Origin: Anagrus nilaparvatae
Lineage: Eukaryota; Arthropoda; Insecta; Hymenoptera; Mymaridae
Length of the DNA stretch: 64,000 nucleotides
Reading direction: 5' to 3'
Assembly: GCA_022575985.1 (NCBI GenBank)
Contig: JAKSXM010000246.1
Span: 12,232,001 to 12,296,000 of the forward strand
Shown: positions 22,982-53,149 of the stretch, piece after piece
Layout of the letters: each line of letters starts with the position of its first letter
Position numbering within the stretch: position 1 is the first letter of the stretch
Position numbers and translations under genes: made by a program
The notes under the pieces: generated by a model
The model's input: only the letters and a program-made list of their open reading frames with translations
Told to the model about the DNA's origin: nothing
Database searches by the model: none

Positions 22982-25900
22982 CTGTAATAATAAAAATAAA
23001 TTATTTAAATTTTTTTTATTATTTACTGTTATTAATTACATAGAAAATATAAAAAGGAAGTCTATAAGGTTATGTTTTAAAAATATTTTACCCTGGAATA
23101 CATTATATTAAATATTGTAACTGTTAAAGTCGAGAGGGCACGCGGATTTATAATATTACAAAACGATCTTATGGAAATGGTACCGTTATAATAATGCTTA
23201 CAGAATAACTTTAATGTGTGTTTATACTTATAGCAAAAAATATTTTATTAAAAAACAAAAAAAAATTTTTTTTAATTACCTGGACCGGAGCAAAAGAAAA
23301 TGTATTTTGTAGTAGATACTCTTGTTGATTTTGTTGTATATTTGCTTCGGATTGATTACTATTATGATAATTATGGTAATTATGATGATAATTATGATGA
23401 TTATGATGATTATGATGATAATTTTGATTGTTATGTGAATTCGTAGTTGTTGTCATTGTTGACAATGTCGTTGTTGTATTTATTGAATTATTAATTTCAA
23501 GTCTTAATGATTTTTGATATTCTGGATCTTCAGTCATAGGCCTAACCATATCCCAATGTGATTTTGTTGGTGGTGAACTTAATGCTTCGATTGGTAATTC
23601 TTGTATATAAAAATCTTCTTCGCCAATAACTCTATTATCACCTAAATGTGATTCTCTAACGTGTTCTTCTATTAATTGATGTGTTGCTCGTAATTGACCA
23701 CAGGTTACTTTATCCGATGCATTACGCCAACTGCATTGATATATCACCTTAGGTTTTTCCTCTTTCTGTGCATGAAAAAACAAAAAATCATTAATTTCAT
23801 ATTTAAATTTTTAAGTTATAATTACGTATATGGAAGAAAGAGAGAGAAAAAATATGAAAAAAAGCTCAAGTTATTTCCGGATATTATCATATGCACGCGC
23901 GCTTTCGTCAAAGAAAAATCGATTTCATCATAAATATACAATATTTCTTGGATTTTAACATAAACATTATTAGGGAGGTCGCGCGCAATATTCTTTGTTT
24001 ACATCAACATATAACCATTACCACGTGGCTATTGATCCACTCTTTGTATGTATATTTTTTCTTCCATATGTAATAAAAGAGAAAAATTTTACCGGCCGGT
24101 GTCGACGTCCCCTTTTATTTGCAAAGAAATTTTTTTATAAGAATATGACGCAACTAGTGCTAAAAGAAACTACGTCATTCAATTTGTAAAAAATATAATA
24201 AAGAATCTTAACAATTCTATATTGGGTTGTAAGTTAAGTTAATACATTTTTTCTTGTACAAATTTCTAAAAAAAGAAATCCTCTCATAGAAAAAATCGTT
24301 TTTTTTAACCTAGGTATTTTTATAAAAAAAAAAGAAGAAAGGACAAAAACTCAGCAGCAACAAGCTTATGGTTTCTTTCCCCTCAACCGGCTTCAGAGCC
24401 ATCGGAGGTCACAGACCCTTGTTGCGCTAGCTGCGCTGTTTTATAATGTATGTATTATAATTCGTGTATAGAAATACTCTTCTCCTCCCTCGCACATATA
24501 ATACACATTTACAAGAATTATACATACAAAAGACGACGTTATTAAATATACAAAAGCGCAGTTTGTTTGCAGGAGCGGCTAAGGCCCATTATCGAACCCC
24601 ATCGTCTTCGAGAGCTTTTATACTGTACTTGTTTAGAGAGAGAAAGAGACCGGCACTCAGCTGGTTGGTTCAAAGAGAGAATGGAGGAGAAAATAATAAA
24701 AGTATTATAAAGAGAGGGGACAAGGGGTAACGCCCGGGGAACCAAAACAAACCGGCCGGCCATGTGCTATAATTTTGCTGGTGGAAAGGGTCGGACGTTG
24801 AACTCAATTCAAAGGCCCGAAATGGGAGAAACAAGGATGGGTAATATGAGTTGATAGTATGTAAAGATATTAAAAAAAAAAAGTCCCAAGCAACACAAAG
24901 GATTGTGTATGTAGAAAATTGCCGGTAACAAACGCATGCGCATTATGGTTGTTTACGTCGCCATATTTAAATTGCAATCTTTAACTATATATATGTTGAG
25001 AAAGTACTTAACTTTTGCCGGTTTGTTGTTGTTATAATGTTTATGGGAATGTACAATAATAATAATATATGCGATATCTATGTATATACTTTTTTTTTGA
25101 ACCGTTAAGCCTCATTAATTTTCTATCTAATATACATTTTATAGAGAGAAAAGATTTTTTAATCGGATTTATAATAAACATTTATTTATAAAATTTACAT
25201 TTTTGCCAATAATTTAGCCTTTTTAGTAATATAAATAAGAGAAAACGACAATTTTTTAACCAGATTTCACTGCGTTATTGTTTATTATATTTATTTAATA
25301 AATAAAACAAAGAAAATGTGTAATATACTCGCGAGAAAAGATAATGAAATAAAGCCTTTTGTTTAATCATAATATGATATATAAAGAACTTTTTCGAATT
25401 TTTTCAAAATTACGGTCTTATTTCTCCGGATATTCATTTTGCAAAATTTTTTATTGTTTTTTTTTTTTTTAAGGTTTCTCTAAAAGAAAAAGATATATAA
25501 TACATATTAACAAAGAAGATCGATTTGCGAAAAAAAAGAAAGAGAAAAAGAATAAGGAGGGGCGGGAGAGAGAAACGAAGGAGAATAATAATACGAGAGA
25601 GACCGGTATTTCGCCGGCCGGCATTTATACAAGCCGGTAATTTTTGCTTCGGAAGAGAAACAGTATCTATGGATAAATTTTTATTTAAAAAAAAAAATTA
25701 CATTTTAACGTTGATGCTGAAGAAAAATTAAGTTCCCATATAACTTCTCTATTGCACGCAATTTAAATTATTGTACGAACATAAATATAACCGGCTTTCT
25801 TCACCTGCGGGATCAATCCGCCTCTTGTACTTACGTACATTTTTTTTTTATGTGTATTAGTACCTTTTTTTTATTTATTTTTCTCCTTTTTCCACACATA

Positions 25901-28900
25901 CACATACACATACATTTGTTTTTTACTTCGATCCATGACCTCTCTCAAGGTCCATATTTTATTTCTGTGTATTATTGGCAAAATTATTGGTAACGATTTT
26001 TTTTAAAATCGAATTTACAAAAAATTATTAATTTTTTTAATCTTTAGATAAAATGGCTGTTCAAGATAAGGAAAATTAAAATTTATTCACTTTTATCCAG
26101 GTCAATTAATTTTTTGATTTATCTGCAGTTGCAGCTGGTTTATGCTTGTTATTATTATTATGTTTACACAAGTGAAAGACAATTTTTTTTTATTTATTTA
26201 AAGTTTAAGAAAGTTGTTTTACTTCTTATCAAAATTATTAACCATGTAAATATTAATTTTATTATTATTATTAATAAATTTGTAGGGGTTTTCTCTGGTG
26301 TGCTTGGTTGGGTTTTTGGAGATTTGGCACCAGTTTTGAAAATTAATTTTGTTTAAAAAATTGCAAAATAAAAAATTTTCGCTAATAATTTCTAAATTTT
26401 ACAAAAAAGTTATGCAACTTGGTAGCTAAAAAGTCAGTCAATTTTTTTCAACAAAAAAAATCATCATTCAATGAATTCATCTTATTGTGTAATCTAATGC
26501 AATTTTTCTCTCGGATACCAAAATTAAAAGTCGCTGAGTAACGCAGACAAAATTCGTTAAAAATTTCTCCTAAAAGTGTGTATGAATCAGTAAACTTGTG
26601 ATAACCTGCTCAAAAAATCGTATATATATACTGAATCATCGCTGTTAGGGTCAATGACCTACTATATATGAAACCTTTACTTGAACTATCTAATTCAATA
26701 CGAATCGTTAATAAAAGACTAGTTACAAAATTCGAATTTATAGGCTCCTGAATTTCATTTTATGTTCGTGATTTTATTAATTTTTGGTGGGAAATTATTA
26801 GTTTGGTCAATGTCTTTTTTTCGGAAAACGCAGTAAGGATTTCAATAATCACGAAAAAATGAAAAAATTGGCAGTAATTTCTTAATTTTATAAATTTCGT
26901 GCACGTATAAAAATCTTATATGATACCAACAAAAAAAAGCCATTTAGATTTTGCGATATCTTAATAAAAAATCGTTTACTTTAGCAAGAAAATTATCGCG
27001 AATTCGTTTATTTCAACACAATAAAATCGTGTCTTATCGAAAATTTTAAGCCTGGACAAAATATACAACAATAACCTTCTCTCTCCTCACACACACATAC
27101 ATTCAAAAAAAAAAAAAAAAAAATTTTTTTTCTTTTGAGAGTGAACGCGCACGCGAGTGAGTTCAATATCCACGCCAAGGTCGAAAAATGCCCGCGCATT
27201 GTTTGCGCGGCCGGTTCGAAAAACCACATACACATACATAAATTAAAAAAAAAACTTAGTTGATAAGCCACATATATAAAAAAGTAAAGGAATATAATAA
27301 AAAAAAAGCTGATAATAAACGACGTATTATTTCAAAAAAGTGGGGAACCCAGTCGTTGACATTGAAATTCTCTTTTAATTGCTCATTTACGTCAAATGCC
27401 AAACAATCAAGAAAAATGCCGGGTTTAGCATTTATTTTTTTTTCAATTTATAAATTAAAACTTTTACAATTATTTTCAAAAAAAAAAAAAAAAAAACTTG
27501 GCTAATTTCCAATTTTTTAATAATGCAAATTTGAATATTATTTTGCGCATGTTAATAAAGGTGAAAAACCGAGAGTTCAATATTTATAAACTAATAAATT
27601 AAATGAGCTTAAAAAAAAATATTTTTTCTTGGAAAAAAAAAAATTTATACATATTTGAATTCATTGCACCCTATAAACAGCAGTTTTCTTATCATAATCA
27701 ATTTATCATTATACATCGATAGACATATTTTTTATTTAAAAAAATAAAAATAAATTTTTATTAAAATAAACAAAATAATAAAACCGCACCGTTTGCGGAA
27801 ACTTAAGTTTATATACTTGAACATAATAATATATAGATAAATATCGAGAAGAGCATCACGCAGTACAGTGTCATCGAGTTCATTCACACCGTGTGTGGAC
27901 GAGGAGCTTCTTCTGCTCACGTTTATTTTTTCTTCGTCAGGAAAAAAAAAGTTTAAATAAAATAAAAAAAAGAAATGAAACTATACTTCTTTACCATATC
28001 ATTTCTTTATTTTTACCCTGATGCGCAATAAACTTGCTTACTTATAAATGTACACCGCATTTTATAAATAAAGAAAAAAAACAACACAAGCTCCTCATAA
28101 TGTACTTGAGATAAGATCACATTGGGCCTTTTCAAAGTCCTTGGAGTTTTTTTTTATTTTAAGTCCCTTAAGGGCTCGCGCACGAGTTGCGTACTTGGTT
28201 ATTGCGCAGTTAAATTGTTCTTGGTACCCCAACTTGCGAGTTCGCTAACCTCAAAGTCGTTGTCCCGCGAGAGAGCACTCACAGAGAGCTCATATACAAC
28301 AACTTTTTTTTATTATTTTATCCTTTTTTTTAAATATATTTAATACCTAATAAAAAGAATGATTTGCTACGATTTGCTACTTAGATAGAAAAAAAAACCG
28401 TTACAATGAATTCAAATAATTTTAAATTTACCGCGCATGGTATATAAACTATCAAAATATACCGATTTATTTTTCTTTTAAAATGATACCGGTTATTTAT
28501 AGGGTACACGCATTTCGCGGTACCGGCCCTGATGAAACAAAGATGTAAAGAGAGAAAGAGAGAGAAGGTAAAAAGGATGAGAGGTTAACCTAGGGCAGGG
28601 CTTTTCTTTTTAAAAAACACAAAAGTCCCTTCTTTTTCCCCTCTCTCCAAACAAAACTGCACATGCATGCAGCCGAGTAACATTACAATTTACAAGAAAA
28701 TTTTTTCTTTGGGACCTTCTCTGTACTGTATATTTATATAAATCAGCTGGCATATATAAAAGTGTAAATAATAAATATATGCAGAAAGCATGTACCGGCA
28801 TCATCATCATCTTGTTGCTTTTGACGTCACAACAAATTTGTTTATATCTAAAAATATTCTAGTATATTTGAAAAATTACTAAATTTTACATTAAATTTTA

Positions 28901-34900: not shown

Positions 34901-37900
34901 AGAAATAAAATGCAATCTATGTACTGAGCTTTTTTTTACCATAAAAGGGCGATTTCTTCGAGCAGATTTTTAATAGATATCTAGGGATACTAGTGTTAAA
35001 ACAAATGAACTTTAGTAACTATTAAGGGTCGATTTCATGGAGCGTATTCTTACTAGATTCTAGGGGCACTAGAGTAGAAATAATTTATTACGACTCAAAA
35101 TTTATTAAAATTCTGCTCGAGCAGGATCCAGACAACTAACTTCAAGCAAAATTTTAATTTATTATTAATTTTTTAATTAATAAACTCTAGTAATTATCAC
35201 TAATTACTAATTATTAATTAAAATTTTGCTCAGAGGCAATTTTTTGGATCGCGTTCGAGGAGAATTTTAATAATTTTTGAGATAATTAATTATTTCTATT
35301 CTAGGCACACTGTAGTAGTAATAGGTACTGAGTAGAAATAATTAATTATGACTCAAAATTTATTAAAATTCTTCTTGAACAGGGTCCATAAAATTGCCTT
35401 CGTACAAAATTTAAATTAATATTTAGTGATAATTACAAGATTTCAATCTATTCAACTCTAGAGTTCCCAGAATCTAGTAAATATATGAACCAAGAAATCG
35501 CCCCTTTACCATAAAATCTAGCAAAATCCTTAAAGAAGCGTTTTCTGAGTTAAAAAAATTGAACGCTAGTAACTATCAGTAAAAATTTATTAAAATTTGG
35601 CTTGGAGCCAGGTTCCTGAATCCTGTTCGAACAGGATTTTAAAAGATTTTAGGGACGATTTCATGGAGCATAATTTTACTAGATTCACTAGGGGCACTAA
35701 AGTTCAAGCAATTGAACCCTAGTAATTATCACTAAAAATTATCAAAATTCTGCTCTGAGGCGATTTTATGGATCCTGCTCTACTAGAACTTTAATAGATT
35801 TTAGGGTCGTTTTCATGGAGCGTACTGTTACTACATTCTAGGGGCACTAGATTAAAAATAATTAATTATGATTCAAAATTTATTAAATTTCTGATCGAGC
35901 AAGATCCATAAAATCGCTTCTGAGCAAAAAATTTAATTAATTTTTAGTGATCATTACTAGAATTCTATCTTTTCAACTCGAGTCCCCAGAATCTAGTAAG
36001 AATACGCTCCATGAAATCGCCCCTAAAATCTTTCAGTTTTTTCATAAAAAATCACTAAAAAATTAGTCGAAATTTGCTTCAATTAAATAAAAATCTCATA
36101 AAATTGACCCAATTAAGTTAAAATCAGCTTATACAGTGCTGCCACCACCATAAACAATAAAATAACAAAAAACCCTATTTACTTATTACAAAAATAACAG
36201 TTTACAAAATAGGTATACTTGTAGTAGAGTAAAATAAACCAAAGTACAAAAAAAGCGTTAATTATTTTTTGTTAAAAAACAAGTAAAGTGTGAATTTTCA
36301 CTTTCATTTTCTAAAATTTCATGAATTAAAAAATAGAAGTTACAAATTATAATTTATGCAACATTGTAATAATAATAACGAATACGTCTTTATTTAAAAA
36401 AAATAAAATGTTGTATTTATTGTAATATACTATAGATAATATACATTTTGTTGTTTTTGCCGGTATATAAATCATTTATGCAATAGCAAAAAATATATAA
36501 AAAACGACGATTCGTTGCATTTATTACGTAATTTTTTAACTATATATATGTATATATGTTGAAGTAGTGTAAGTTGAAAAAGCCGCGCGTGTCGTATAAC
36601 ATAATAAAATAATGCATGTAAGACCGGCCGGTGTCGCCTTGTATATAATTCTTTGTCTTTGTTTTAACCTTGCATTTATATATATATTTTTGCATTCGGA
36701 GAACAGAGAGTAGGTATATATAATGCAACTCAAACTATTCTAATTTATTTAAAAAATAAATAAAACAAAATGACAATTTCTCCATACAAATTAGATTAAA
36801 CAAAAGCATGATGGATTTCCGGGTAGTGGATAGGGATGTATAATGATAATAATATTAAGATCGATCATAATAAAGTTTTTTTTTGCATAAAACGTAGATA
36901 ATAATGCAGAAGAAATAAAAAAAGACAGAATAAATAAAAAAAAACCCATTTCAGCTAGAGCTAAAGGTACAACATGCGCGCGCATATGCATAGAATATCG
37001 AGGCGGAACTAGAAATAAATCTTCCGCGTGGGCCGATCGTGGAGAGAGATAATGCACCGCGCGTGCAGTCAGGGCCGCAGTGACCTTAGCCGGTTCTCCC
37101 TCCCACTCTCCCACTTTTCTAAAACTGCACGGTAATATTGCAACTACTACTACTACTACTAACTAAATAGAAAGAGTAGTGGCATAAAAGCGTCCTTCGT
37201 ATAATGCCGGCCGGGAACGTTACAAGAAATAAAAAAAAAACCTCCTACTACCCCTCCTTTCAACTCGCACGTGCCGAACTCGAACAAACTATGACGTAGT
37301 AAAGTAACTCTTTTATGCATCTTAGATATTTATTCCAAACGATTTTTCCAATGCGTTTTTCACTCGATGGTTTTTCCACATCTATACACTACTACTAACA
37401 CTACTATTCCTAGAGAGAGAGACCGGTACAAGGCTACTTTATCTATATGGGACTTTTGTATTTTTTTTTTCTTGCGCAATATCATATTAGGGATCGGCAG
37501 TTTTTTTTTATTTAAAATGACACAATTTAATGATTTTTTCGAAAAATTAATTGCGCAATTTTTGACTAATTTTAAGCAAAAATTTTTTTTATTCATTTGG
37601 TAATTAATTTTTTTATTATTTATTAATTTATTTATTTAAAAAAAGTGCAAGTACACGTTCGCGGCCGGCTTCTCGGCCTTGAACGCCATATAAAGTTGTT
37701 GTAATTAACATTGTCATTTTTTTAATTCATTTGTTTGTCTTTATGATTTTTTTACAAAAAAACTATAAAAAATTACGAAACAAAAGATTTTTTTAATATT
37801 ACACACATTAGACTGCTTGGCGTTGATTTTAACAATGAGAGCACGATTTTTTTTTTCAATTCGATTCTTTGTTTATTATGTTAAAAAAATTACGTAATTT

Positions 37901-40900
37901 TTTAATAAATTAAAATTCTTTGTTTTTTTACTACGGGCTTTATTACGCGAAATGTTCAATATATACTAAAATTTACGGTTCATATTTTTTCTATTCGTTT
38001 CGCTCTAAATCATTTTTCTCTCACTTTACGCAATTATATTGTGCAAAAAAAATGGTAATTTTTTTTAAAAACTTACGATTGTTATTGGTATTTCATTTTC
38101 TGAATTTGAGCTTCCGCTCGGACTACTCATTGGATAATCTTCAGTCTCGATTTTGCATCTTATCTAAAAATAAATCAGAAAAAAAAATGCATTTTAAAAA
38201 AAATACAATTTAAAAGTAAAAAAAGTGATGGTGTTTTTTGAATAATTGCAAATAGTGTAAATACGCAATTTTTTAAGCGTGTAGCGCAACTAAATAGTAA
38301 AAAAGGGGGCATTGGACTGCGTGAAAGGAATAAAAAAAAATTTTATAATAAAAAAAAAAAAACGTTATACGCGAAAAAATAGAACAGAGTTTACTTGATG
38401 CATAGTTAAATAATAATAATTTTTATAAGTGAGTACGCGAGCGTGGATACCTAACGGATAAAATAATTAGCCGCGAGGGAGAAAGCTATTTGATTTTTTT
38501 TTTATGCCGTTATTATTTTATTACTATTAAATAAATAAAAAAAAAGTTATCATTTTTTTTTTATATAAAAAAAATAATTTAATATCGGTTACGCAATTTA
38601 AATCACGGAAGTAAATTTTTTAAACCGTTTTTAAATGATAAATTTTCTTTTCATGTAATTATGATTACTTGTGCGAAAAAATTAATTATTGGGGAAAGTT
38701 TTTTTTGTTGATTTAATTGGATTTAATTAAATTGAATAGTTTTTGAAATTTTGTAGCCGGTACCGGCCGGCGTGTACTCTCATTTTTTGGTTTGCGTGTT
38801 TTGTGCTAATAATTTTTAATCGAAAAGAATTTTAAAATATCACGGATGTTTTTAAGTAAGAATTAAAATTTTTTGTTTAAAAAAACTGAAATTGTATGGT
38901 TTGTAATTAGGTCGCGGGCTTTTTGTTAAATGAAATTTTAGGTAAAATCGAATTTTCGAAAATTCATATCTTGAAAGCTCGATTTAAGATCTTAAAACTT
39001 ACTGAAAAATTATTTAAACAAGAATTTTCAAAATAAAATTCAACGATTTTTGCAGATTTTTTTAATAAAAAAGCGAAAATTTACAAGGCGAAAGTCTCAG
39101 CTAACTCAGGCACGAAAATTGATTAATTTTAGAATTCGAAATATTCCAACATACGATTTAATTTAAAAACAAACATAAAATAAATTTTTTTAATCCACAT
39201 TACTAATTCTGTTGATTTGCGGTTTTTTTTAAATTACTTGTTGTTGAAATTTTGTTTTATCTATTCCAGTAAAACCGACAGTACAAAACTTAATATTCAA
39301 AAATAATTAATTAAATGCCACAAAAATTATTTTTTTATATCAATTTTTTACGCCAAATCTAGAAAAACACTTAATTATTCGATTTTACCCAACTTTTTCC
39401 AACATCTATTTTTCTCCGGAAGAATGTGGTTCATAAAATATTTGAAGGTTATAAAATAAAAAATGGATTTTCCCATTAAGATATAACTAAAAAAAATCGT
39501 TATTAAAAAATATTTGAGATATAAAAAAAGATTTTTATTTTTAAAACCGCAATTTAACTAAAAAATTTTGTGTGTGAGATAGGTACTTAAAAAGCGTGTG
39601 AAATTTCCAAAAAAAAAAACAAAAAATATTTACCCTCTTTTTTTTTGGTCTTTCATTATCGCTAATATAAGACGTGACATAACCATCATCGTAAGTTCTG
39701 AGATTAGGGCTGCTTGATGCTGAGCTGCCACCTCGATTATTATAATTATTATACCGATTAATTGAACTTAAATTACTATAATTATGATGATCGTGATAAG
39801 ATGTATTTATAATATTATTATTATTATTATTTGTCCATCCTTCATCACTCAATGGTGGACTTGGTGTATTTGATCTCCATGATGCACTACTACTATTACT
39901 ACCGCCACCAAAATTTAAACCAATTGAACTATCGTATGAACCATAACTTTGTGATTGACTGTTTTTTGGCGGGGTTGATAATGACATTAATACCATCGCT
40001 GCTGAACATTCATCCATAAAATCACTACGCGATATTATTATTCTATCTGTCCAATCGTTACCTGAACTTGGTCGCCTTTTTCGTGACCTAAAAAATAAAT
40101 ATTATACCGGCGTTAGTTTTATTTTACCGGCTGGAGATTCCCGGGGAATATGTAGGTCATTTATGTAGGTCATGTTAAACTACATAGTAACTACGAACCC
40201 TAGATTTTTGTTCCATATTTAAAAAAAAAATTGCATAATTTTTTAAAGGTACGAATTTTGGGCGTGGCTGTATCGCTTATTGGCTATTATTTAATTTTTA
40301 CTCTTTGGTATTAAATAAATATTTTACGGATTACTTTTGATTTATTATTACATCGTGGATACCGGCTTGAAGAAACACCGGCTTTACTTTTTTATTACAA
40401 AACAAGTTTTCAATTTTTTTCTCGTTCAATTTTTCATTTATATATTTAAAAATAATTTTTTTTTTCAATTGCAAAAAAATAAAAATAAATCATATTTACT
40501 TAATCTAAATTAACGCAACGAGAGACAAAGGAAAAAAAATCTTGTTAATTAAATATTAACTTAATATATTATAATAATCAATGATTAATTACATAGATAA
40601 CAAAAAAAAAAAAAATTTTCTTTTGTCTAGAAAATATTTCGTTATGGCGAAATATAGAGCAAAAAAAAAAAAAAAAAGAATCCAGGGCAAAAACTTGAAT
40701 AGGTTGCGCGTGGCAACCCAAGGGTTGTAAAAAAAGGTATAGATATAAAATAAAAAGCTAAACGAGCATTGACCTAGTTTAACAATATCCTAGGTTACCT
40801 AGTCACCCCGGAAGTAGAGTATAAATACAAGGGGGTGGAGATAGAAAATGTGACCTAATTTTATATTTCTCCTACTTTTTAGTTGAAAAGGGGGAATGAG

Positions 40901-43900
40901 AATTTTCTCTCTTCCAGATCCAAATAATTTTCCATCTCACTCTGAAGCAAGCTCTGAAGTTTAAGAGGGTATAGGTTAAAAACTTTCATTTTCCGCAGCC
41001 TAGTTTACTGCTCTGATCTCAAAATACATATTCTCTCTCACTCCCACCCACGTATTTTTAGACAATGACAGATTTTCTATGTGTTTTATCGATCGGTTTT
41101 TATGTGCCGGTGTCGGTGTTTTTTAGCATTTTTTACCATTAAAAATATTATTTCGCCATTTTGAATTATTAACGATTTCATATGGGAGTATTTAATAATA
41201 GCACAAGGTCTATATATATTTAATAGTATTATTTATATAAAATATCATCATTTATTAGATATTTTAAAGCCACACCCATAAAAATATTTTTTTTAATGTC
41301 TTATTGTGTGTGTATTTTATTTATTTATTTATCGAAGCCTTACGCAATGAAAAAAAAATAATATTTTTTAACTAAAGACAAAATTGTAAGTTTACTTTGA
41401 AATAGAAAAAAAAACCTTGGTCCTTTACACGTGTATGCACTCGACCTAATGTCCTAGTTAGATACTCATGACTTTTAAAAAAAAAGTTTACTATAAGCAC
41501 CACCGCCCGGACGCGGAAGAAAATTTGCAGTGTAAAAAAGGACGGAAAATAAATGACAATTTATTAAATAAAAAAAAAAAAATTCAGTCTATCTTTGTTT
41601 ATTCAGTCTTATAAAATAATATAAAATACACACACCCCCGGCACTTTGGCCGTGTGCCCGTGTACCTGACCCACATTTCCCCTATGCATGCGAATATTAT
41701 AATATAGAAGAGGAGAAGAAGCCCGGCAAAAGCTGCATCGATCGACCCCGATTATTTCAGTCCTACTATTACTACTTTATGCACACTCTAACACATAAGG
41801 GATTTTCAAATAATTATTCCCGAGCCGGCCGGCTTTTTTTTAAAAAAGACTTTTTAAATAAATTTTTTTACATTATTTTTTTCCGCACGTGCCAAGGTCT
41901 TTTAATGAGTATGCAAAAAATATAGTTTTATTCAGAAAATTTAATAAAGTAAGGGCTGTGGCTTGGATTTTTTCTGTTAGCTGACCTATATACATTTTTT
42001 TTAATATGGAACGTCGGACAGTATCGATTTTTTAAAAATTTTTATATAGGAAAAAGAAACTTACCCTCCGATAACTTGTGGTACTTCTATTGTGTTTGAT
42101 GATGTTCGTTTACGATCGCTACCCATGTCAGCTAATCGAGCGAAATCTGTATCTGTGTCGGCTAATCTTGCACTTTTACGAGATTCTAGTAATCTTATTT
42201 CGTCTATTCTTTTTGTTAATCTCATGATTCCCTGTAAAAAAAATACAAGAAAATTTTTTTTAGTGATTGATATTTTTTAGGAGGGAATTTCCAATTATAT
42301 TTATAAGCGAAAAAAAATATGATTAATAATTTTCATGGGGAAGAAGAATATTCTTTTTTGTTTTTACGCTTTTTTGAACTCTTGTAAGTTCCTAGTTGGT
42401 TACATAATTTTTAAATTTAAGAAAAATTAAGTTTTTTGAATTATTATTTTAAAATTTGGCTAAATTTTAAGTGTGGGTGTGAGTAAAATGCACGCGAAAA
42501 AAATAAAAATTGTTTTCAGAGAGAACTTGAACTTTGTTTCATATATAGTATATGTTCCAAATAATTAAAGTAGGTTAGAGGATGTGCTTCTGGCCACTCC
42601 TTAGTTGGTTTTCGCAAACTAAAATTATTTGCTAAATATGAACAAAATTTTTATCGGTGTTTGATTTTTTTAAAATTTTACAAAAATTATTCTGTTATCA
42701 GTTAACGAAAATTGCCAATTTTTTTGTATTTTGAATCCTAAAGTAATTTGTAAATCATCATTTTTGTGAGTATTTTAGGATTATTGCTAAAATTGGTTAC
42801 AATAAGTATTTCATTAACCGGAAGACTGTTAATTTTTATGGGTTACTGTAACGAGTAACTTGGAATCGAAAATTAACTAGAGCTAATAAATTTACAACAA
42901 TTTCGATTTTTTCGTTAATTTTCAAAAATCAGCAAAATTTATCAATTTTTCGCTAATAACCTACAGTTTTTTAAATATTTACAAGAATTACTTTTAAAAG
43001 TGTAGTTTGAACTGAAACTCATTCGGTCCCAAACTCAAGTATCCTCATTCTCTCCAAAATAAAATTCAACTTGCACCATTAAAATTTTTCGAATTATTTA
43101 CTTAAACAAAATTAAAAAATGCAAGTAAATAAAAAAAAACAAAAACTTCTTGTTTACTAAAAAAAAAAAAAATCAAAACAATATTTTTGCGGTAAATAAT
43201 TTCAAAATAAAAAAAAAAAATAACGGAAATTTAATTTAATATTATCATGTTTACAAAATGAAAAAAAAATGGCACGTGTTTAAATAAATAAAACTTTAAT
43301 TATGGTTTTCCTGTTTATTAAAAAAAAGTAAGTATTTTATGAACAACGAGCGCGTATTTTTCTTCGCTCTCAAACATCATAATCAGAAATTTTTTCTCAC
43401 TTTTTTTTTTGTTAAAGTCGAACAAAACTAAAAAAAGTAATTTTCTACTATAACAATTTTTAACGTATTTTGTATATTTTATAGCGGTAAATTTTAAATA
43501 TACGTTAGAGTTCAGCTTGTAAAGCAAGTTTTTTTTTTGTAAAAATATATGTAATTATACGAATTTTCTCTTACAAGAAGCTTTGGTAGCTCGAGTGATT
43601 AACGCGCTAAGATTAATGTATGATAGAGTGTATCATTACATAGTGAAAGGTGTGGGTTCGACTCTCAGCGCGAAGATTTTCTGGTTTTTTTTGCAATAAG
43701 TTCGCAATCGACGTTCTAGCTTATAGAAATTTTAACGCAGCTTGAAATTATTTGTAGTCTCACTGTGCGGTAATGCAATATTGAAAAGGTCAATCTGAAT
43801 CTTTATTTACTTTCATTTTGAATGAAATTTTAACATTACGGTTTTTAGCTTAGATTATCTGCGGGTTTTATTTATGGTTATTAGTTTCTGCACTCTGCGC

Positions 43901-46900
43901 ATGTTAGCTTTTTTATATGGAAACTTTAAATGTCATCAAAAGTCTTGAGTTGTGCAGAATTTTAATTTACTTTCGAGTTTTAATTATTTTTATTGCCGAC
44001 ATTTTTTAAAAACTGGGAAAAGTAAAGTTTTAAAAAATTCGAATGAGTTGATCGGCTCAAATAGATCGGGATTATATTTCATGTTATCAGAGCCGGGTTT
44101 TTTATCATTTGGGTTTTTTCAGACGCTAGGTATTCCTGATTTTTCGAACGCGAGGTCCTAAATCCAGACGCAGCATCCAAACATTTTTTTCAGAATTTAA
44201 AAAAATTTGTTTTCTCAATTCAAAAAGCCCAAAAAAAAAAATCCCAAAAACTCAACCTGAAATTTCCGATCTCAAAACAAAAATTACATAAACAAAAATT
44301 TAGCCGGCCGGTTTTTTTCATAAAATAAAAGTGTATACAACAAATTCAATACATCCATCTCTTTCTACTTAAAAAAATTGGTGTCACTGTGTCGACTTGA
44401 TATGTAATTCGCATATTTATAATAAAAAAAAGAGTAAGTATACAAGGTGACGTCACAAATACATAAAAAAAAGAGTCATAGATAAAAAAAAAACGCGCTG
44501 TTGCCAAGGCGTCATAATCACATGCATAAAACTTCTCAATTTTCTTCTTCTTCTTCTTCTTCTTCGTAAAAATAAATTTTTTCTTATAAAATAAATAAAA
44601 AAATATCTTGAAAAATTATTATGGATATAAAATAGAAAAATTATTATTCTGCCCGATCAGCGCGCAGATACAGCATCATATAACATAATAAAAAGAGATA
44701 GACATACATAAAAGCGTGCCCTAATGACACACTGACCTCCTTCAATACATTATAGAGTATGTATACAGAAAAACGACTAATGCAACTTAAAAAAACCTAT
44801 AAACATTTTTTTATACATACATTTTATTTAATTAAAATAAGACGCCAAGCAGTCTCTATTTAAAAAATTTCTAATTATATCTTAAGAAATAATAAAAGTT
44901 CTAAAAAAAAAATATATATATAAACGTCCTTGCATTCACTTACTAATTTTACTTAACAATTTTTATATATACTCTAAAAATTCTTAAGTTCCGGGTATGA
45001 TTTTGCTTTAAAAAAATGATTTTTCGCCTTAAATTTTGCAAAATAAAAATTTAAAAAATTGAGGTACCGGCCGGCCTCGAATGATGACGTTCTAATTCGA
45101 TTATAATAATATTACACACACACACACACACATACAATAACTCTCACTTTTACATCCTCTTCTGTAAAAATAAAGTGTATATGTATTAGTCTGTCGTATC
45201 ATTTATACACACACATAGACACAGCATACATTCGAGAGTTACGATGTTGACCTACTTCTTATTTCTCTTTATAATACATTTTATAAATATACACTGTTTC
45301 TTTTTATTTTTGCAAAAAAAAAACCTCGAATTAATAAAATATAGTAATATAACATTGACTTTATTTATTTATAAAAAATACACAGAGATTTTTAAATCCT
45401 TTAGTAACTATCGATAATTAGATTTCATATATACCACACGTGTAAAGGCCGGCCGGTTTTTTAATATAAAATATATATATATATATATACTTTTTTTGCG
45501 TAATATAATAATAATAATAAGGCCGAAGTATATTATACAGTGGGCGACAAGATTTCTAACCAAGCGTGACATAACAAGTATGTGTGATTGTTTTATAACC
45601 TATAAATAATTTTATATAAAAAAAATCATCGTTTTCAGTGTATAAAGTAAGACACAACCTACGATTTTTTTAAATTGATTATTAATGTTTCACTTTCCCT
45701 CTCTGTATTAAGTGGCCAAGAATTATATGTATAGTCAAAGTCACGAGCGTTCTACCAAGGATTCGAAATCTTTTAAATTTCACTCTCTCTCTGATTTTGA
45801 CGATATTTCATGGAATAATCCATATATAATTAATATTATGTAAAAGAGAAGTTTTTTATATTATTTTTTTTTGCAAAACTAACGATTATCAATTTTTCAA
45901 GTACAGGGTCGTTTAATGTATGTTTATAGTGTATTTAACTTTTTTTTTCCTGTATATATGCTTTTGACGACACGATTTTATGATTATTTATAAAAAATTA
46001 AAAAACTGTATAATTTAAAAAAATTTATTTACTATGTATGTAATAATATACTTGTTAAAGTCTCAGGGTTAGAGTATAATGAGAAAAAAAAAAATTACAA
46101 ATCAGTTTTTTTTTAATTTTTCTATATAGAGAGAAAAAATAAAATTTTCTTCTTCCGCATTTAAAATAGGGGATTTAAATAAAAATATATTTTCTATGTA
46201 TACTATCGGTTTAAAAACGATAGAGACCTCCCGTAAATTGCTAATATCTCGGTCAATAATAGTCATAATTGATTCGGATAAAAAAAAAATTGATTGAAAT
46301 TTATTCATGTACTCCCATACAGAAGAATATGATTGTAAGTTTTTTTAAAAAAGAGTTACGGCAAGAAATAGGTGAAAAAACTGTGATTCCTATGATTTTT
46401 TTTTAATGGTCATTTTCAACGGTCGATTTTTTATACTAAAAATTAATATTTTTTGATGAAAATTTAACTGTGGTTTTTTTGACTCTTTCGCTTCCTGGGG
46501 CCGTTGGAATTTTTAAAAAATATTGATAAAATATAGATATATAGCCCTTCAAACTTTTTTTATCAAAATTAGTTCAAATTATCGTATCGATGAGTTTTTT
46601 TTTTTAATCGATAGGTATTGATCACTAGATTGTAAATTCTGAATTTTTTTGCACGTGGATTTGTTAGTTTGATAACAGTATAAAAAAAATAAACGAATTT
46701 TGATGAAAAGAATTTTAATTATTAGTCTCAGCATTGTTTTCATAAATTATGGTTTCAATAATTTTAAAAAAATTTTTCTATTCTTTTAGACAAAAGTTTT
46801 CTAAAGGTCAGGTAGAATTTCGTGCAGCGCATCACAGCGGGTGGCTCATATTTACATTTTTTTTTCTTTCTTTCAATTAAAACAATGCTGAGACTAATAA

Positions 46901-48032
46901 TTAAAATTCTTTTCATCAAAATTCGTTTATTTTTTTGATGCTGTTATCAAACTAGCAAACCTACGTGCAAGAAATTCAGAATTTACAATCTAGTGATCAA
47001 TACCTATCGATTAAAAAAAAAAACTCATCGATATGATAATTTGAACTAATTTTGATAAAAAAAGTTTGAAGGGCTATAAATCTATATTTTATCAATATTT
47101 TCTAAAAATTCCAACGTCCCCAGGAAGTAAAAGAGTCAAAGAAACCACAGTTAAATTTTCATCAAAAAATATTAATTTTTAGTATAAAAAATCGACCGTT
47201 GAAAATGACCATTAAAAAAAAATCATAGGAATCACAGTTTTTTCACCTATTTCTTGCCGTAACTCTTTTTTAAAAAAACTTACAATCATATTCTTCTGTA
47301 TGGGAGTATATGGATAAATTTCACTCAATTTGTTTTTTACCCGAATTAATTACGACTATTTTTGACCGAGATATTAGCAATTTACGGGAGGTCTCTATCG
47401 TTTTTAAACCGATAGTATTTTAGTATATATAAAATGCGCATGCGTTTAATAAAAATGGGCCAACGTTACTAGGTATATATAACACATTTATAATACTACT
47501 ACTACTATGAAAATGCATTTGGGAAACGAGGTCAAAAAAAATTTAATTTTCTTGTTAATGTATACCGCACGTGCAGCATCCATTATTATTATTATTATAA
47601 TAAATATACTGTAATATTTACCTCTTGTCCTGACGGTGCAAAAGCAACATCAACTTCATCAAGATGTTCTCTGTGTTGTGTTACTTCTGCTTGTATTTCA
47701 CGACCGTTATACGTTAAAAAAACTTTTTGTCCAGTTACTAATTTTGCACCAGTCACTGAATTAAAACCAGGTCCAATTAAATCTCTATCGGAATATTCAT
47801 TATTTGAACTTGGTGCTTTACCAGTACCGGCCGGTACCGGATCGAATCTTACTGAATAACGTGTTTTTGAATTAATACTTAAACCATTATCACTTTTTGA
47901 ACTTAATGTACCTGTACCTGCTGGTGTTTTAACTGCGTGTATAACACCGCTGTAATATTTACCATCGGAGCTAGGCGCGCATACCCTTGTACCGATTATG
48001 CTACGCTTTGCTAAACGCTTACCAGTAGACAT
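22646..48032 (-). CDS. Glut4EF: GLUT4EF-like zinc-finger/C-clamp transcription factor (SLC2A4RG/ZNF395/ZNF704 family)
   Basis: DNA-binding transcription regulator. Six coding exons on the minus strand: 48032-47622, 42231-42065, 40087-39634, 38163-38077, 23765-23280, 22981-22646. Phases join through five GT-AG introns, giving 646 aa. The start is [17 protein letters not shown]: the RLxKRSxxGxRV motif is the conserved family N-terminus, and the frame upstream has no ATG before a stop. Domains in order: N-terminal motif; a region with [16 protein letters not shown] matching the family's conserved QKVY block; [19 protein letters not shown]; Ser/Asn-rich linker with a TPSPPLSDE patch; acidic segment ending [11 protein letters not shown]2H2 finger (YQCSW...HVRESHLGD) followed by EEDFYIQEL; polyT/H/N and polyQ tracts; C-terminal C-clamp ([22 protein letters not shown]). 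Vertebrate relatives bind GCCGGCG. Introns are large (14.3 kb for the fourth) and hold transposable elements and a cluster of CCGGCCGG sites. Confidence 0.9.
23280..23765 (-). CDS. Glut4EF: GLUT4EF-like coding exon 5 (C2H2 finger)
   Basis: 162 codons between CAG|AAAGAG and CAG|GTAATT. Encodes [20 protein letters not shown], then [20 protein letters not shown] and [20 protein letters not shown]. The two histidines and second cysteine keep normal C2H2 spacing (C-x12-H-x4-H), but the two cysteines are ten residues apart, instead of the four of the vertebrate finger as I recall it. The 3' part is Thr-, His- and Asn-rich, from ATG/ATT-type repeats. Confidence 0.88.
30183..30318. repeat. Small inverted-end repeat with G tracts
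   Basis: The left side reads CAGGCACGTATC and a G-rich run. The right side is the reverse complement of CAGGCACGCAACCCTCC. About 135 bp overall, non-coding, lying in intron 4. Possibly a miniature element; target duplication not obvious. Confidence 0.35.
31690..32640. mobile_element. MITE-like element with ~100-bp terminal inverted repeats
   Basis: The left terminus GGCCGCTTTCTGAAACGGGC (from 31690) and the right terminus (to 32640) are reverse complements, continuing for about 100 bp through GCTTGCTTAACTTTTTTTTT, AGTTGGTAGCG and AACTTAAGCAAAAGTTGTCC. The 951-bp element lies in an ATA/AAT-rich target that makes the target duplication ambiguous (ATA or AATA). The interior is AT-rich and non-coding but has a ~30-bp direct repeat, ATTAACAAAATAAAATTTAT and following bases, at about 32316 and 32476. 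Non-autonomous DNA transposon; the GGCC terminus is compatible with several superfamilies. Confidence 0.8.
34943..36030. repeat. Complex block of direct and inverted ~45-bp modules
   Basis: A module of the type GGGTCGATTTCATGGAGCGT, then TTACTAGATTCTAGGGGCACTAG, occurs in plus orientation near 34945, 35026, 35652 and 35804, and inverted near 35463-35508 and 35976-36020. A second word, GCTCAGAGGCAATTTTTTGGATC or its inverse, recurs between them (35222, 35380, 35755, 35905). Together they form nested palindromes over ~1.1 kb, apparently built by repeated insertion or duplication of a foldback element. Non-coding, in intron 4. Confidence 0.65.
38077..38163 (-). CDS. Glut4EF: GLUT4EF-like coding exon 4 (29-codon acidic exon)
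   Basis: An 87-nt exon too short for a simple frame scan. It was found because the flanking exons are phase 0 and this stretch has an acceptor (TTTTTAG|ATAAGA), a donor (ATC|GTAAGT) and an uninterrupted frame reading [20 protein letters not shown] then SENEIPITI. It links the basic PKKKR end of exon 3 to the zinc-finger exon. Being in phase, it could also be skipped as a cassette exon. Confidence 0.75.
38164..39633 (-). other. Intron 3 of the GLUT4EF-like gene
   Basis: 1.47 kb, AT-rich. One CCGGCCGG octamer at 38763-38770, preceded by GCCGGTA and followed by CG to make GCCGGCG, is the only marked feature. Confidence 0.55.
39634..40087 (-). CDS. Glut4EF: GLUT4EF-like coding exon 3 (Ser/Asn-rich linker)
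   Basis: Encodes [18 protein letters not shown], then [18 protein letters not shown], the equivalent of the vertebrate MDEMMAAMVLTSLS motif, followed by a Ser/Asn/Gly-rich linker with [12 protein letters not shown] and ending ERPKKKR. The donor is AGG|GTAAAT. A polyasparagine run comes from an (AAT)n-like tract near 39811-39831. Confidence 0.88.
40088..42064 (-). other. Intron 2 of the GLUT4EF-like gene
   Basis: About 2 kb. Contains single CCGGC words at 40108, 40128, 40358 and 40378, an octamer at 41825-41832 and an ACACGTGTA near 41428. Otherwise A/T tracts. No alternative exon recognised. Confidence 0.5.
42065..42231 (-). CDS. Glut4EF: GLUT4EF-like coding exon 2
   Basis: Acceptor ...TTTTTTACAG|GGAATC and donor GGAGG|GTAAGT. 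Encodes [20 protein letters not shown], then a tandem-like pair [20 protein letters not shown]. Phase 2 at its 3' end fits exon 3. Confidence 0.82.
43571..43695 (+). ncRNA. tRNA-like Pol III unit (tRNA pseudogene or SINE head)
   Basis: A box-like TGGTAGCTCGAGTGATTAAC with a perfect D-stem pair TAGC/GCTA, a B box GGGTTCGACTC (about 43654), a weak acceptor-stem match CTTTG/CGAAG, and a T-run terminator after it (about 43685). The spacing between D arm and T arm is much longer than in a standard tRNA, and the T-stem is imperfect. An intron-containing functional tRNA therefore looks unlikely; a tRNA-derived remnant is more probable. Confidence 0.35.
44541..44566. repeat. (TTC)n microsatellite
   Basis: Eight or so TTC units in intron 1 of the GLUT4EF-like gene. 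Confidence 0.9.
45113..45132. repeat. (CA)n microsatellite
   Basis: About ten CA units in intron 1, 40 bp from a CCGGCCGG octamer. Confidence 0.9.
46201..47417. mobile_element. Large foldback element, near-perfect 540-bp inverted arms
   Basis: Arms 46201-46740 and 46879-47417 are inverted copies with only scattered mismatches and short indels, separated by a 138-bp spacer that contains GTGCAGCGCATCACAGCGGG. Termini read TACTATCGGTTTAAAAACGA. The TA at each end would be a TA target duplication, as for Tc1/mariner-type insertions. No protein is encoded; the minus frame near 46102-46308 is incidental. It sits about 200 bp inside intron 1 from the donor of exon 1, so the pre-mRNA could form a ~540-bp duplex. 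Diverged arms of the same family lie at 63140-64000. Confidence 0.85.
47622..48032 (-). CDS. Glut4EF: GLUT4EF-like coding exon 1 (N-terminal conserved motifs)
   Basis: 137 codons from the ATG at 48032 to a GAG|GTAAAT donor. It encodes [18 protein letters not shown], the family's N-terminal signature, and the block [19 protein letters not shown]. One CCGGCCGG octamer (47827-47834) falls inside the coding sequence, at codons for PVPAGTG. Upstream in frame is an Asn-rich, Arg-rich stretch (to about 48170) that begins after a TAA and lacks an ATG, so I treat it as 5' UTR. Confidence 0.85.
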
Positions 48033-48695: not shown

Positions 48696-48741
48696 AGGTG
48701 GAGGCGGTGGTGGTGGCGGTGGCGGCGGCGGCGGTTGCGGG
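48696..48741. repeat. GGC/GGT imperfect trinucleotide repeat
   Basis: GGTGGAGGCGGTGGTGGTGG-type run, all G/C/T, in an otherwise AT-rich region. On the transcribed (minus) strand it is CCG/CCA. It lies between the putative promoter elements and the ATG, so is likely in the 5' UTR. Confidence 0.85.
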
Positions 48742-48960
48742 AAGAGAGAGAGAGGAGAAGAAACGCTCTTGTATTATTATTATATTAGCTGTTGCCGTGT
48801 GCATTCTTGACGTATTCTTCAGCCGGCCGGCAACCCGGAATAACAGCTGACAGATAACAACAATAGCACGTGACCAAGCTTTATTGGTTAATAAGACTGA
48901 CCTACTTATTCTTATTGGTTGATATTTATTCCCCACTATAAAATTTCAACTATGCACTAC

Positions 48961-51623
48961 CCCACTCTATGTTTCTGCAAGTGATTTTTCCTTTGTGTTC
49001 ATAATCCCACTACTTTTAATATTAGAAATGCACACGCGCATCCCTCACACTTGTATATTTTCTTCGTTTTTAAAGAGCTAGGAGAGAGCTTCCATGTGTG
49101 TGCATGTTATGTTTACATATTCCAAAATATATAATATTTTATCTCTCTTTTCGTAGGTATTTAAAGAGCGTCGTATAATTTATATCATTTAAAGCAAAAT
49201 ATTTTTATACCTACCTGATGGCAAAAAAATTTTTTAAATGCCTTTTTTTTGACGCAATAAAAATGCCTTTTAAATGTAACTTAAAAATTAACATAAAATA
49301 ATATTTTGATTTTTTTTAAATCCCCATAAAATGGGATCAACATTAATATTTATGGCTTGATATGTATTTTGTATCATAGCGGCATAGCCAGTGACGCGCG
49401 CATACAAACATTTTTTATGTACAAAAAAATACTTCAATGCAATTTTATTTACAAAAAAATAAATATAAAAAGAAACCTTGATCAATTGAGAATTTCACCT
49501 GTATAAAAGAATAACTTTTTTTGTAAGTATATAAAATTTATGATTATTATTTGATGACGTATTTACAGAGTGCCGGCCATTTCAGCTGCTGGCATTGCAT
49601 TTGATGTGACAACACAAAGAAAGAATACGCAAGAAAAGAGCCAAGTAAATAAATGGATGAGATATATAATTATATGTTTAATAAATTGTTAAACAAAGAG
49701 TTTTATTATTATTATTATTATTGAAAATAAAATAAGGAGAACAAAATATATAACAAAAAAGTTAAATAAAAATTTGCAACTTTCCCTCATTACGTACAAA
49801 AAATATACCGTGTGTAATTTTTCGCATAAAACTTCCCATATTATATCTAATATTATCATTATATGTATGTGTTTGTATCTTCGCTCGAGCTAATTTTCTC
49901 ACTTTCCTAATAAATGTATTTATTTTATTATACATGTGTGTATTCGTGTGAGTACACATAATAACAGTAAAATTATAATAATTTAAAACATGAAAAAATA
50001 AATAAATTACACATAGAAAATTGAAATATAGTGTTTTTTTTATAAAAGCGTAAATAAGGAACAAAGGAGCTCTCTCAAAGAGTCTATAATAATAATAATA
50101 ATAATGTGTGTTATAGAATCTGATTCGCGCGCATCGAGGATTTAAAAGGCCATATATATACATATACTATTTTTTTTAATTTAAAATTTATACATTTGTA
50201 TTTGTAAATTGTACATGAGAATTACTGACGCGTGGAAGATTTTTTTTAAGTATTTTATCAGCTGTATAGATGTGTTAAAACTGCACGTGCATTAAACTTG
50301 TATTTGTGCACATATAAATATAAATAAATAATAAAATGTTATAAAATGAAAGCGAGTGTGTGTATATATCAGAAAAGTGTCTTATAAAATATCCTCCCAC
50401 CACCTAAATAAAAAAAAAACTATTTTTGCTTTCCCGGCCGGTGCGCACTTGCGCTTATATTATTTAAAAAAACCTTTCTTTCTCTTTTTACCCCTACTTA
50501 AGTATAGTATGTGTTATACTACTACTTTTGAAAATTTGCTAATTTTTTAGGTTGTGTTGTCGTAGTCCCGGTATATATATTTTTGTCCCTTCTCTTACTT
50601 TTGTGTACTAAATAAAGTCCAGCATGTAAATAATTGACTATTGAGTAATTATTTTATTAGATTTTTGTGTAAATAAATAACATAAAACAAAATAAAATCC
50701 TCATTAAATAAATAAAACGGTTAAAAAGATGTATTAGAAAATCTTTTTCGAGGTCTTTTTAAATAACCGACCTATCCTAGTTTTTATTTCAGTGCGCGCG
50801 TGTTGCGCAATTCCTCGTCTGGGCGGCATTTAAATTCTCCTACTCTCCATAAACCTTTCTTTATTTTCTACTATCTCACTCTTTTTTCTATTCGCCTTCT
50901 CCATTAAATATTTTGGGGACGCGTTCGGCTCGTGCTGAATTTTATAACACATAATATAGAGTTTTTTTAAACTCCATATATCATCATTGAACCGGCAGTT
51001 GCCAAGGGCCACAGATTTTCTATGTTTGTGTTGCAGAAAAAAATCTATAAGATATATAAAAATTATTTGTATTTGATTTTTATTTATTTATTTCGTAATA
51101 AATAAAATTTCTTGTTAAGGCTATTATAATTGTTTTATTATAGTAAAACCTTGAATATTACAAGAATAATTTACTTAAATAAAAACAGAACAATAATATA
51201 TTAAATTCAAGTACTTTTGTTTTTTTTTTTTATAGAATTGTATGTTCCCAAACGATTATATTTAAATATATTATTACTAAATCTGGACAATAATAGTAAA
51301 GTAAATTTACAGGTCGCAGAATATTTTTGAAAGGCTAAATAATAATTGTAAATTAATATATATAAATAAAGAAAATTTTTCACTTGGATTATTAATTCTA
51401 ACCTATAAAATAGACTGTATTTTTGCTCAAGGATTTACATCATGCGCGCCGTTCTATCTTTTTCTAATTTTAAGATAGATAGATACAATTTTTATTTCAC
51501 TTTCACAAAATTGCATATTAAAAGAGATAAGACTTTCCCCCTCTTCTATTATACCACCCCCTATTTTTTCATACATATATTTACAATCTAAATATTATTA
51601 TTATTTGTGTTTTATGTTACTTA
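48961..51623. other. Upstream intergenic region, no gene seen
   Basis: AT-rich, with scattered GC words, one octamer (50434-50441), one GCCGGCC (49572) and an (ATT/AAT)n run near 50086-50105. Short frames here (for example around 49762-50163) are low-complexity Tyr/Asn-rich and have no support. Confidence 0.45.
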
Positions 51624-52083
51624 CAAGGGGAGTGTCAACTGTTTGGGATGCCAATTTGCTTGTGGGTTTCAGGACAGGTTGTGATAGTTAAGAAAACATC
51701 CCTCATATCCTCAGTTTAACTGGATGGGCCTTCAGGGCCTAAAAATTAGACCCCCAGTAGAGATCTATGCTATAAGATGGTTTTTAAGGCTAAATTCTAA
51801 ATGACTCTGCTCCCTTGGAAGTCAACCAAATACCTTTCGGTTGGTCTAATTTTCTTTCTGTAACGTCAGCTTTTAATCTCCTTAAATCGCATTTTTTCAT
51901 CAGTAATTCTCATATTTACCCAAAAATGACCAATTTTTGAATGGTTGCAAAAGTTGTAATTTTTTACTAAAATGGGTTTCATAGGTCTCAAAAATTTTTC
52001 ACAAGCTCTTAGTTTTCAAAAGTTTTTTGCTGCCCTGAAAGTCAAAATCAAATCAGCTCCCCAAACAGTGGGCACTCCCCTTG
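51624..52083. mobile_element. MITE with TTA target duplication
   Basis: The left end reads CAAGGGGAGTGTCAACTGTT and continues TGGGATGCCAATTTG. The right end is the reverse complement of CAAGGGGAGTGCCCACTGTT, continuing TGGGGAGCTGATTTG. The element is flanked by TTA on both sides (51621-51623 and 52084-52086), the 3-bp duplication typical of PIF/Harbinger-type elements. It is 460 bp and non-coding. Its 3' half resembles 56200-56420. Confidence 0.8.
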
Positions 52084-53149
52084 TTATTTAATATTAAACA
52101 AATTATTTTTTACAATTTTAATTATCAGTTTTTTTTTTTAAATGTACAAAATTATACTTTTGTTTTCTTCCATTTATTTATCGGTCAGGGCTAAACTACA
52201 CTAGATTATTTTTGAAAGTAAAAAAAATTTTTATTGTTATCACTATTTTTAACGTAGAATTCGCAATAATACGACAGAAATTTCGAAATTTTTTTAAAGC
52301 AAATTTTTGTTTTTACATGATTATTTAATTAGATAAGCAAAAAAAGATCTTGAAAGTATGTTTTTACTTTCTTAACAGCATATAAGCCGGCCGGAATATC
52401 CAATTTTTTTTACTATTAAAATGCTAAATAAAAACATGATATAATATTATTTAAAAAACTTTCTCTCTATGATTTTATTAATTGCTAAAATTTCATAATT
52501 TATTATCATTTATGCCATATATGTGGATATGACATTTAAATAGAAATGTCATTTAAATTAGACAGTTTTCAAATCTTTCTAACACAGCTGGTTTCTTTGT
52601 TTTGTGTATGCAAAAGGATAGAAAGGTTTTATTAGAAAGGAGATTAGGATATTTTATACTTTGTGAAAAACAGAATTGTCAGGAGAGATAAAAAATTTTA
52701 AACAATTTTTTATACTAATTCGAGGTGAAAATTGAAGCATTTAACGAATTTTTAAAATTCATTTTTAAAATCACAAAAACTTGAAAAATTTCGAGTTTGT
52801 TTTTCAAAATTGAAAAGAGTATCAAATTTTACAGGGTTAAAACTTTTGGAGTATTCAGTTCTTAAGTTTTATACTAAGCTCAAAAACTTTGATAGATATG
52901 AATTTTTAGTATAAAAAGTTCTTTCGAATACTAAGTATGTATAAAAGTGGCACGCTTTGTCCGCGAACAAGGTCTTATAAAACCTGGCATTATTAAAGTC
53001 GCTTGTCTTCGAGGTTCATTTTTTAATTGGAATAGATTCCTTATTTTGCCCAGAAATTAAGTATTATATAAAATTTGTATAAACTAAAATGGTTTTTTTT
53101 TTCACTAATGCCCAAATGGACAAAAAGTAACTAAAATTATTTGTTTAAC
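52084..53149. other. Intergenic DNA, no gene seen
   Basis: AT-rich. Contains the outermost CCGGCCGG octamer (52387-52394). Near 52951 GGCACGCTTTGTCCGCGAAC resembles the end of the 53150-53495 foldback, suggesting a broken second copy. Confidence 0.4.

Follow-up and report, generated by a model that had tools for sequence, protein, structure and literature searches.

A distributed array of perfect palindromic octamers at an insect Glut4EF/ZNF395 ortholog suggests control of the gene by its own C-clamp factor

The window (the whole 64-kb stretch of DNA that was analyzed) harbors a minus-strand gene that, as judged by its sequence, is an ortholog of ZNF395, SLC2A4RG and Glut4EF and that hosts an array of palindromic octamers (Table 1). 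A protein search retrieved insect ZNF395 or 'glucose transporter 4 enhancer factor' proteins among the 120 matches listed out of 223, the best-scoring named relatives among these matches being Hymenoptera, and some segments of the protein resemble Copidosoma most when compared by eye, pointing to a parasitoid hymenopteran as the likely source. The N-terminal DUF4772 domain scores 99 bits with PF15997, against a cut-off of 27. The C-clamp at the opposite end of the protein is intact, as the original prediction held: its four cysteines are present and invariant among the 14 sequences aligned, its frame is open to the stop codon, and its sequence matches the SLC2A4RG chain of PDB 7dta and 9z44 (E = 1e-13). 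The AAxxL segment is also kept in the gene, as seen upon alignment with orthologs. We dropped a structural argument and relied on the 7dta/9z44 sequence match: AlphaFold2 modeled the C-clamp piece poorly, with a mean pLDDT of 59 that rose to about 70-75 within the C-clamp itself, and a Foldseek search of this model against the PDB returned zero matches. A protein search using the intronless paralog as query likewise yielded zero matches.

Table 1. Coding exons of the Glut4EF/ZNF395 ortholog and the 14 octamer copies (window coordinates)
Feature	Position	Strand	Basis or placement
Coding exon 1, DUF4772	47622..48032	-	Pfam PF15997, E=3.4e-28; ATG and donor by eye
Coding exon 2 (ends approximate), conserved 12-residue segment	42066..42232	-	Sequence read
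Coding exon 3, 14-residue AAxxL segment	39635..40087	-	Aligned with orthologs; motif of PMC9890238
Coding exon 4, C2H2-like region	23280..23765	-	Alignment; ends by eye
Coding exon 5, C-clamp and stop	22646..22981	-	Structure-database sequence match; alignment
Octamer 1	24092..24099	.	Intron before C2H2-like exon (23280-23765); single-copy stretch 24000-25800
Octamer 2	24752..24759	.	Intron before C2H2-like exon; single-copy stretch 24000-25800
Octamer 3	25614..25621	.	Intron before C2H2-like exon; single-copy stretch 24000-25800
Octamer 4	36624..36631	.	Long intron before C2H2-like exon
Octamer 5	37207..37214	.	Long intron before C2H2-like exon
Octamer 6	38763..38770	.	Long intron before C2H2-like exon; extra GCCGG immediately ahead
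Octamer 7	41825..41832	.	Within GCCGGCCGGC; intron between SRKSARLA exon and AAxxL exon
Octamer 8	44304..44311	.	First coding intron; tested stretch 44200-45600
Octamer 9	45067..45074	.	First coding intron; tested stretch 44200-45600
Octamer 10	45449..45456	.	First coding intron; tested stretch 44200-45600
Octamer 11	47827..47834	.	Inside coding exon 1; codons CCG GCC GG = Pro-Ala-Gly
Octamer 12	48823..48830	.	791 bases upstream of ATG
Octamer 13	50434..50441	.	2.4 kb upstream of ATG
Octamer 14	52387..52394	.	4.4 kb upstream of ATG

Exact copies of CCGGCCGG number 14 in the window, all located at 24092-52394 as originally predicted, with none in the rest of the 64 kb. The 50 kb flanking the window to the left and to the right (ten stretches of 10 kb) are free of the octamer too. 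Placement was judged relative to the coding exons, with exon ends set by eye on the genomic sequence, and agrees with the predicted confinement of the array to the introns, the first coding exon and the upstream region: ten copies fall in introns, three lie upstream of the ATG and coding exon 1 holds the remaining one. The intervals between octamers are mostly 0.4-3 kb through these three compartments, and the stretch at 25.6-36.6 kb contains zero octamers, although its CpG observed/expected ratio is mostly high. Between 36.6 and 52.4 kb, the 11 octamers are spaced somewhat more evenly than at random (4% tail), whereas all 14 together are not, and we make no claim of regular spacing since the evenness vanishes once all copies are included. 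The coding octamer carries a rare codon, as GCC accounts for 1 of the 22 Ala codons counted; CCG accounts for 5 of 25 Pro codons and GC3 is 16% (coding sequence counted without coding exon 2).

The number of copies far exceeds what base composition would yield. The G+C content of the window is 26.6% from base counts, close to the roughly 25% estimated beforehand, and shuffling the whole window produced a mean of 0.06 copies of CCGGCCGG and a maximum of 1, with 0 of 100 shuffles reaching 14. Composition was also controlled locally because region 22646-53000 is CpG-rich in general, with a CpG observed/expected ratio of 1.37 versus 0.86 in the rest of the window and more CCGG (75 versus 12), CGCG (67 versus 8) and GCGC (65 versus 16) words. 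Markov models trained on the octamer-masked region predict 0.02 (order-2), 0.25 (order-3) and 0.43 (order-4) copies of CCGGCCGG in 22646-53000, and dinucleotide shuffles in 500-bp blocks (n=200) averaged 0.04 copies and never exceeded 1, so that composition-matched controls fail to yield the octamer despite the CpG richness of the region. Among the 16 types of all-GC palindromic octamers, CCGGCCGG occurs 14 times in the region, GGCCGGCC three times and each of the remaining 14 types zero times or once; the strong excess is limited to CCGGCCGG only.

The copies are uniform in form. They mostly read RCCGGCCGGY, as had been claimed, the base outside the left end being a purine in 13 of 14 cases and that outside the right end a pyrimidine in 12 of 14, which makes 25 of 28 arms of this type (p = 1.4e-5). 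Single-mismatch neighbors of the octamer amount to only four beside the 14 perfect copies, with 0.69 neighbors expected, and the scarcity of degenerate copies seems to make this array sharper than ordinary site clusters. Pairs of CCGG words are found 14 times at a gap of 0, whereas every gap from 1 to 12 has only 0-2 of them, about 0.19 being expected for each. Lone CCGG words are weakly associated with the octamers (27 of 47 within 500 bp, rotation P = 0.04), and 62 of 132 CGCG/GCGC words lie within the same distance (rotation P = 0.17).

In the 488.7-Mb home assembly, CCGGCCGG occurs 899 times and the reversed word GGCCGGCC 214 times. The 885 octamers outside the locus correspond to an expectation of 0.05 per 28.3 kb, and the density at the locus is 273-fold the outside density. 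The copies here are thus far above both local and genomic expectation, as in a homotypic array. To get past repeats, we searched flank-typed patterns alongside reversed-word controls, obtaining 109 matches versus 56 for the RG-octamer, 150 versus 96 for the [CGT]A-octamer and 105 versus 43 for the YG-octamer; without the array's own copies, these become 101 versus 56, 141 versus 96 and 100 versus 43 (about 1.5- to 2.3-fold). One hundred matches of each of the three flank types, 300 of the 364 in total, resolved into 231 distinct sites including the 14 of the window, while sites with AA or a pyrimidine on both sides of the octamer were covered in the first 17.5 Mb of contig C1. When copies less than 60 bp apart were counted as one and clusters were sought in spans of 30 kb, 14 of the 231 sites fell at the locus, three at the runner-up (C156:13004702-13025265) and one or two everywhere else. 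Equal density at many unrelated loci, which the original prediction named as refuting it, was thus not seen among the 231 sites, but repeat arrays are locally denser, as illustrated by an array on contig C1 with 9 octamers in 1.6 kb. Over the opening 17.5 Mb of this contig, 50 sites were listed, of which 27, mostly chosen for closeness, were inspected; 25 of the 27 lie in repeats or duplicated segments. At least two repeat types were recognized, one composed of AAAACCGGCCGGTTTT units and reaching 9 octamers within 1.6 kb, the other carrying GGAACCGGCCGGTT every 30 bases.

We fetched 19 octamer loci elsewhere in the genome, at four of which the octamer lies 0.13-0.83 kb upstream of a recognizable start codon. 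These four are an HSP20 gene (L028), a BTB-domain gene (L031), an hnRNP-Q-like gene (L035) and what we take to be a Ubx-like gene (L037), on account of its MNSYFEQ and YPWM motifs, Pfam being silent. At L032, the octamer immediately precedes an exon that encodes an L27 domain, and the remaining 14 of the 19 loci have nothing recognizable beside the octamer or comprise virus-like element frames (L041). An association of octamers with promoters elsewhere in the genome is at most suggested by these loci, and such octamers may mark targets of the factor.

The octamer is present in at least two repeat types of the genome, one of them reaching 9 copies in 1.6 kb, which could indicate that repeats carrying AACCGGCCGGTT units seeded the locus and that the octamers have no regulatory role. 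The 150-bp flanks on both sides of the 14 copies are, however, unrelated to each other and without match to the fetched repeat copies, the sole non-self flank matches in the window and the fetched loci spanning 42 and 35 bases and leading to unrelated places. Stretch 24000-25800 is single-copy in a genome search and stretch 44200-45600 has two short, AT-rich matches elsewhere and is otherwise single-copy; these two stretches contain six of the 14 octamers, and one octamer is coding. A transposon or repeat origin is contradicted by the unrelated flanks and the single-copy stretches, and we consider it highly improbable. The original prediction raised the alternative that the octamer is a genome-wide motif of developmental genes; in the form considered here, it would be a general motif of CpG-rich ones, the cluster at this locus being one of many. 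The four octamers upstream of start codons, that of the Ubx-like gene included, would agree with such a role, but comparable clusters are absent among the 231 sites (300 of 364 matches), where the other loci reach at most three copies, and the small excess of flank-typed octamers over the reversed controls is also at odds with a motif of wide use. We accordingly give this alternative very little credence.

Two other readings assign the array to a different protein. TCF C-clamps read RCCG and GCCGCCR-type Helper sites, including palindromes such as YGCCGGCR, as reported in PMC4999783 and PMC4154663, and the octamers might in principle form a Helper-site array for TCF/Pangolin, in which the TCF C-clamp and neighboring HMG sites would convey Wnt input. 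HMG-type sites are nevertheless found within 12 bp of only one of the 14 octamers (0.7 expected) and within 30 bp of one of 14 (1.4 expected), and reporters with Helper sites only are reported to give no Wnt response (PMC4154663), making such an array very unlikely. Alternatively, a protein other than the product of the gene could bind the octamers, which would then serve this gene alone as a local tethering or chromatin element. The region is CpG-rich, the sites extend over 28 kb instead of being packed in one enhancer, and the gene's own factor is assigned as reader indirectly, all of which would suit a different binder. A general tether would, however, be expected at more genes, whereas no other listed locus has more than three sites, and the documented CCGG-reading domain that we found is of the kind encoded by the gene itself (PMC5339479). 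We regard a different binder as unlikely.

The reading that we favor, and consider probable on the basis of sequence, is that the octamers form an array for the factor encoded by the same gene, irrespective of the sign of regulation. The presence of 14 copies, far above any other single-copy place counted, strongly suggests that the gene controls itself. Further support comes from the pairing of CCGG words at gap 0, the weak gathering of lone CCGG words, the unrelated flanks, the six sites in single-copy stretches and the rare codon of the coding copy. Against it speak the general CpG richness of the region, the octamer-free stretch at 25.6-36.6 kb, the scarcity of single-mismatch copies and the absence of the HDBP consensus from the octamer core. 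This consensus, GCCGGCG, which the original prediction named, occurs twice in the window, each time overlapping an octamer. The proposed match between factor and site draws support from the CCGG word that the ZNF395 C-clamp is reported to require in vitro (PMC5339479) and from the intact C-clamp of this gene. In ZNF395 and SLC2A4RG, the C-clamp alone confers DNA binding, according to the same report (PMC5339479). We propose that the 14 octamers are candidate sites for the factor, each consisting of the half-sites RCCGG and CCGGY at zero spacing, to be read by the Glut4EF/ZNF395-type C-clamp. Two C-clamps or a dimer could engage each octamer, which would fit because the octamer comprises two abutting CCGG words, and the factor would in this way occupy its own locus.

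The AAxxL motif sits in a repression domain of fly Glut4EF, and tested AAxxL domains are described as dependent on Sin3A (PMC9890238). By analogy, the conserved AAxxL segment may recruit a Sin3A/HDAC1-type corepressor, which would exert negative feedback on the gene's own transcription, and the many sites could additionally buffer free factor. The CCGG requirement of the C-clamp, the two CCGG words of the octamer and the retained AAxxL segment together make negative feedback through a distributed array the most likely mode of action. The sign could instead be positive, because ZNF395 reportedly activates certain genes (PMC5339479, PMC3781154), in which case the same factor and sites would sustain an activating maintenance loop. 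We see this form of self-regulation as possible but rather unlikely, as the segment kept here comes from a repression domain in the fly protein, and within the own-factor reading, repression is probably the likelier outcome. More tentatively, the gene might be its factor's strongest single-copy address, a 28-kb 'self-operator' of perfect palindromes, one of them coding, kept sharp by selection and acting both as feedback target and as sink. Since octamers elsewhere are mostly isolated, the self-locus would then detect how much factor is present ahead of any response by other targets.

Little is understood of insect Glut4EF and its vertebrate relatives ZNF395, SLC2A4RG and ZNF704, regulators whose DNA-binding domain is small and unusual. 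For these proteins, the array puts forward RCCGGCCGGY with zero gap as the in vivo site, the gene itself as a first target, and a sign of feedback. It became evident by plain counting owing to the AT-rich genome, and our data suggest that a motif-density outlier in a single genome can hint at a factor's recognition site ahead of experiment.

SLC2A4RG/HDBP1, ZNF395/HDBP2, ZNF704 and insect Glut4EF combine DUF4772, C2H2-like, AAxxL and C-clamp segments in one gene, as does the gene described here, and the CCGG recognition reported for ZNF395 matches the octamer halves. The literature passages on these factors do not give the octamer as a C-clamp motif or describe reading of a zero-gap, eight-base palindrome; among the matches listed, no binding-site paper for the octamer string was apparent from titles and abstract openings and no description of a C-clamp self-array was found, in contrast to the array present here, and the factors are absent from the main text of a motif survey (PMC12594988). 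TCF HMG-Helper sites are GC-rich, semi-palindromic C-clamp targets like the octamer, whereas no excess of HMG partners accompanies the copies at this locus. In homotypic binding-site clusters, many copies of one motif reside at one locus; the array shares this property but its copies are nearly all perfect and widely spaced, and one is coding. Negative autoregulation by own sites reportedly operates at C. elegans tbx-2. The Drosophila snail repressor acts on its own gene through negative feedback mapped to one enhancer (PMC12135202), whereas perfect sites spread across 28 kb here and none of the other sites counted form a similar cluster. That a gene can be regulated by its own product through such sites is therefore already known, and it is the perfection, the spread and the near-exclusive location of the sites that are unusual.

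Many of the octamers examined outside the Glut4EF/ZNF395 locus sit in two types of repeat, one with AAAACCGGCCGGTTTT in its units, occurring in opposite orientations in copies some kb from each other, and another with GGAACCGGCCGGTT at 30-base intervals. At a further site (L041), the octamer adjoins frames that, judged by eye, are like a Polinton- or virus-like element. Frames at window 59454-61172 resemble a BEL/Pao-type retroelement, and a Pfam scan of two of them returned zero matches over the cut-off.

Features of the window and of stretches fetched from elsewhere in the home genome assembly (G000; C, contigs; L, fetched stretches)
Feature	Position	Strand	Remark
BEL/Pao-type retroelement-like frames	window 59454-61172	-	
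Tandem repeat	window 35557-35849		about two 152-base copies
Repeat type with AAAACCGGCCGGTTTT in its units	G000:C1:11407223-11408864 (L015) and other places		
Intronless Glut4EF/ZNF395 paralogue	L027:3258-5366; G000:C195, about 11.771-11.773 Mb		703-codon open frame
Octamer and ATG of Ubx-like Hox gene	L037:865-1003		octamer 131 bases 5' of ATG
Runner-up octamer locus among sites listed	G000:C156:13004702-13025265 (L033, L034)		3 sites (overlapping copies merged), 20.6 kb

The gene in L037, which we take to be a Ubx-like Hox gene from the motifs MNSYFEQ and YPWM (its Pfam scan was silent), is a possible target through its upstream octamer. Within the locus, an 11-kb piece of the long intron upstream of the C2H2-like exon (window 25622-36623) contains no octamer; its CpG o/e is high for the most part and CCGG is sparser there than in the remainder of the locus.

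The octamer is also absent from the 6 kb examined around the intronless paralogue, and a protein search with this paralogue found no relatives. Its product has a DUF4772 domain (E=1.1e-16) as well as a C2H2-like region, and its C-clamp is intact (identity 55% across 31 residues). The gene looks like an old retrocopy.
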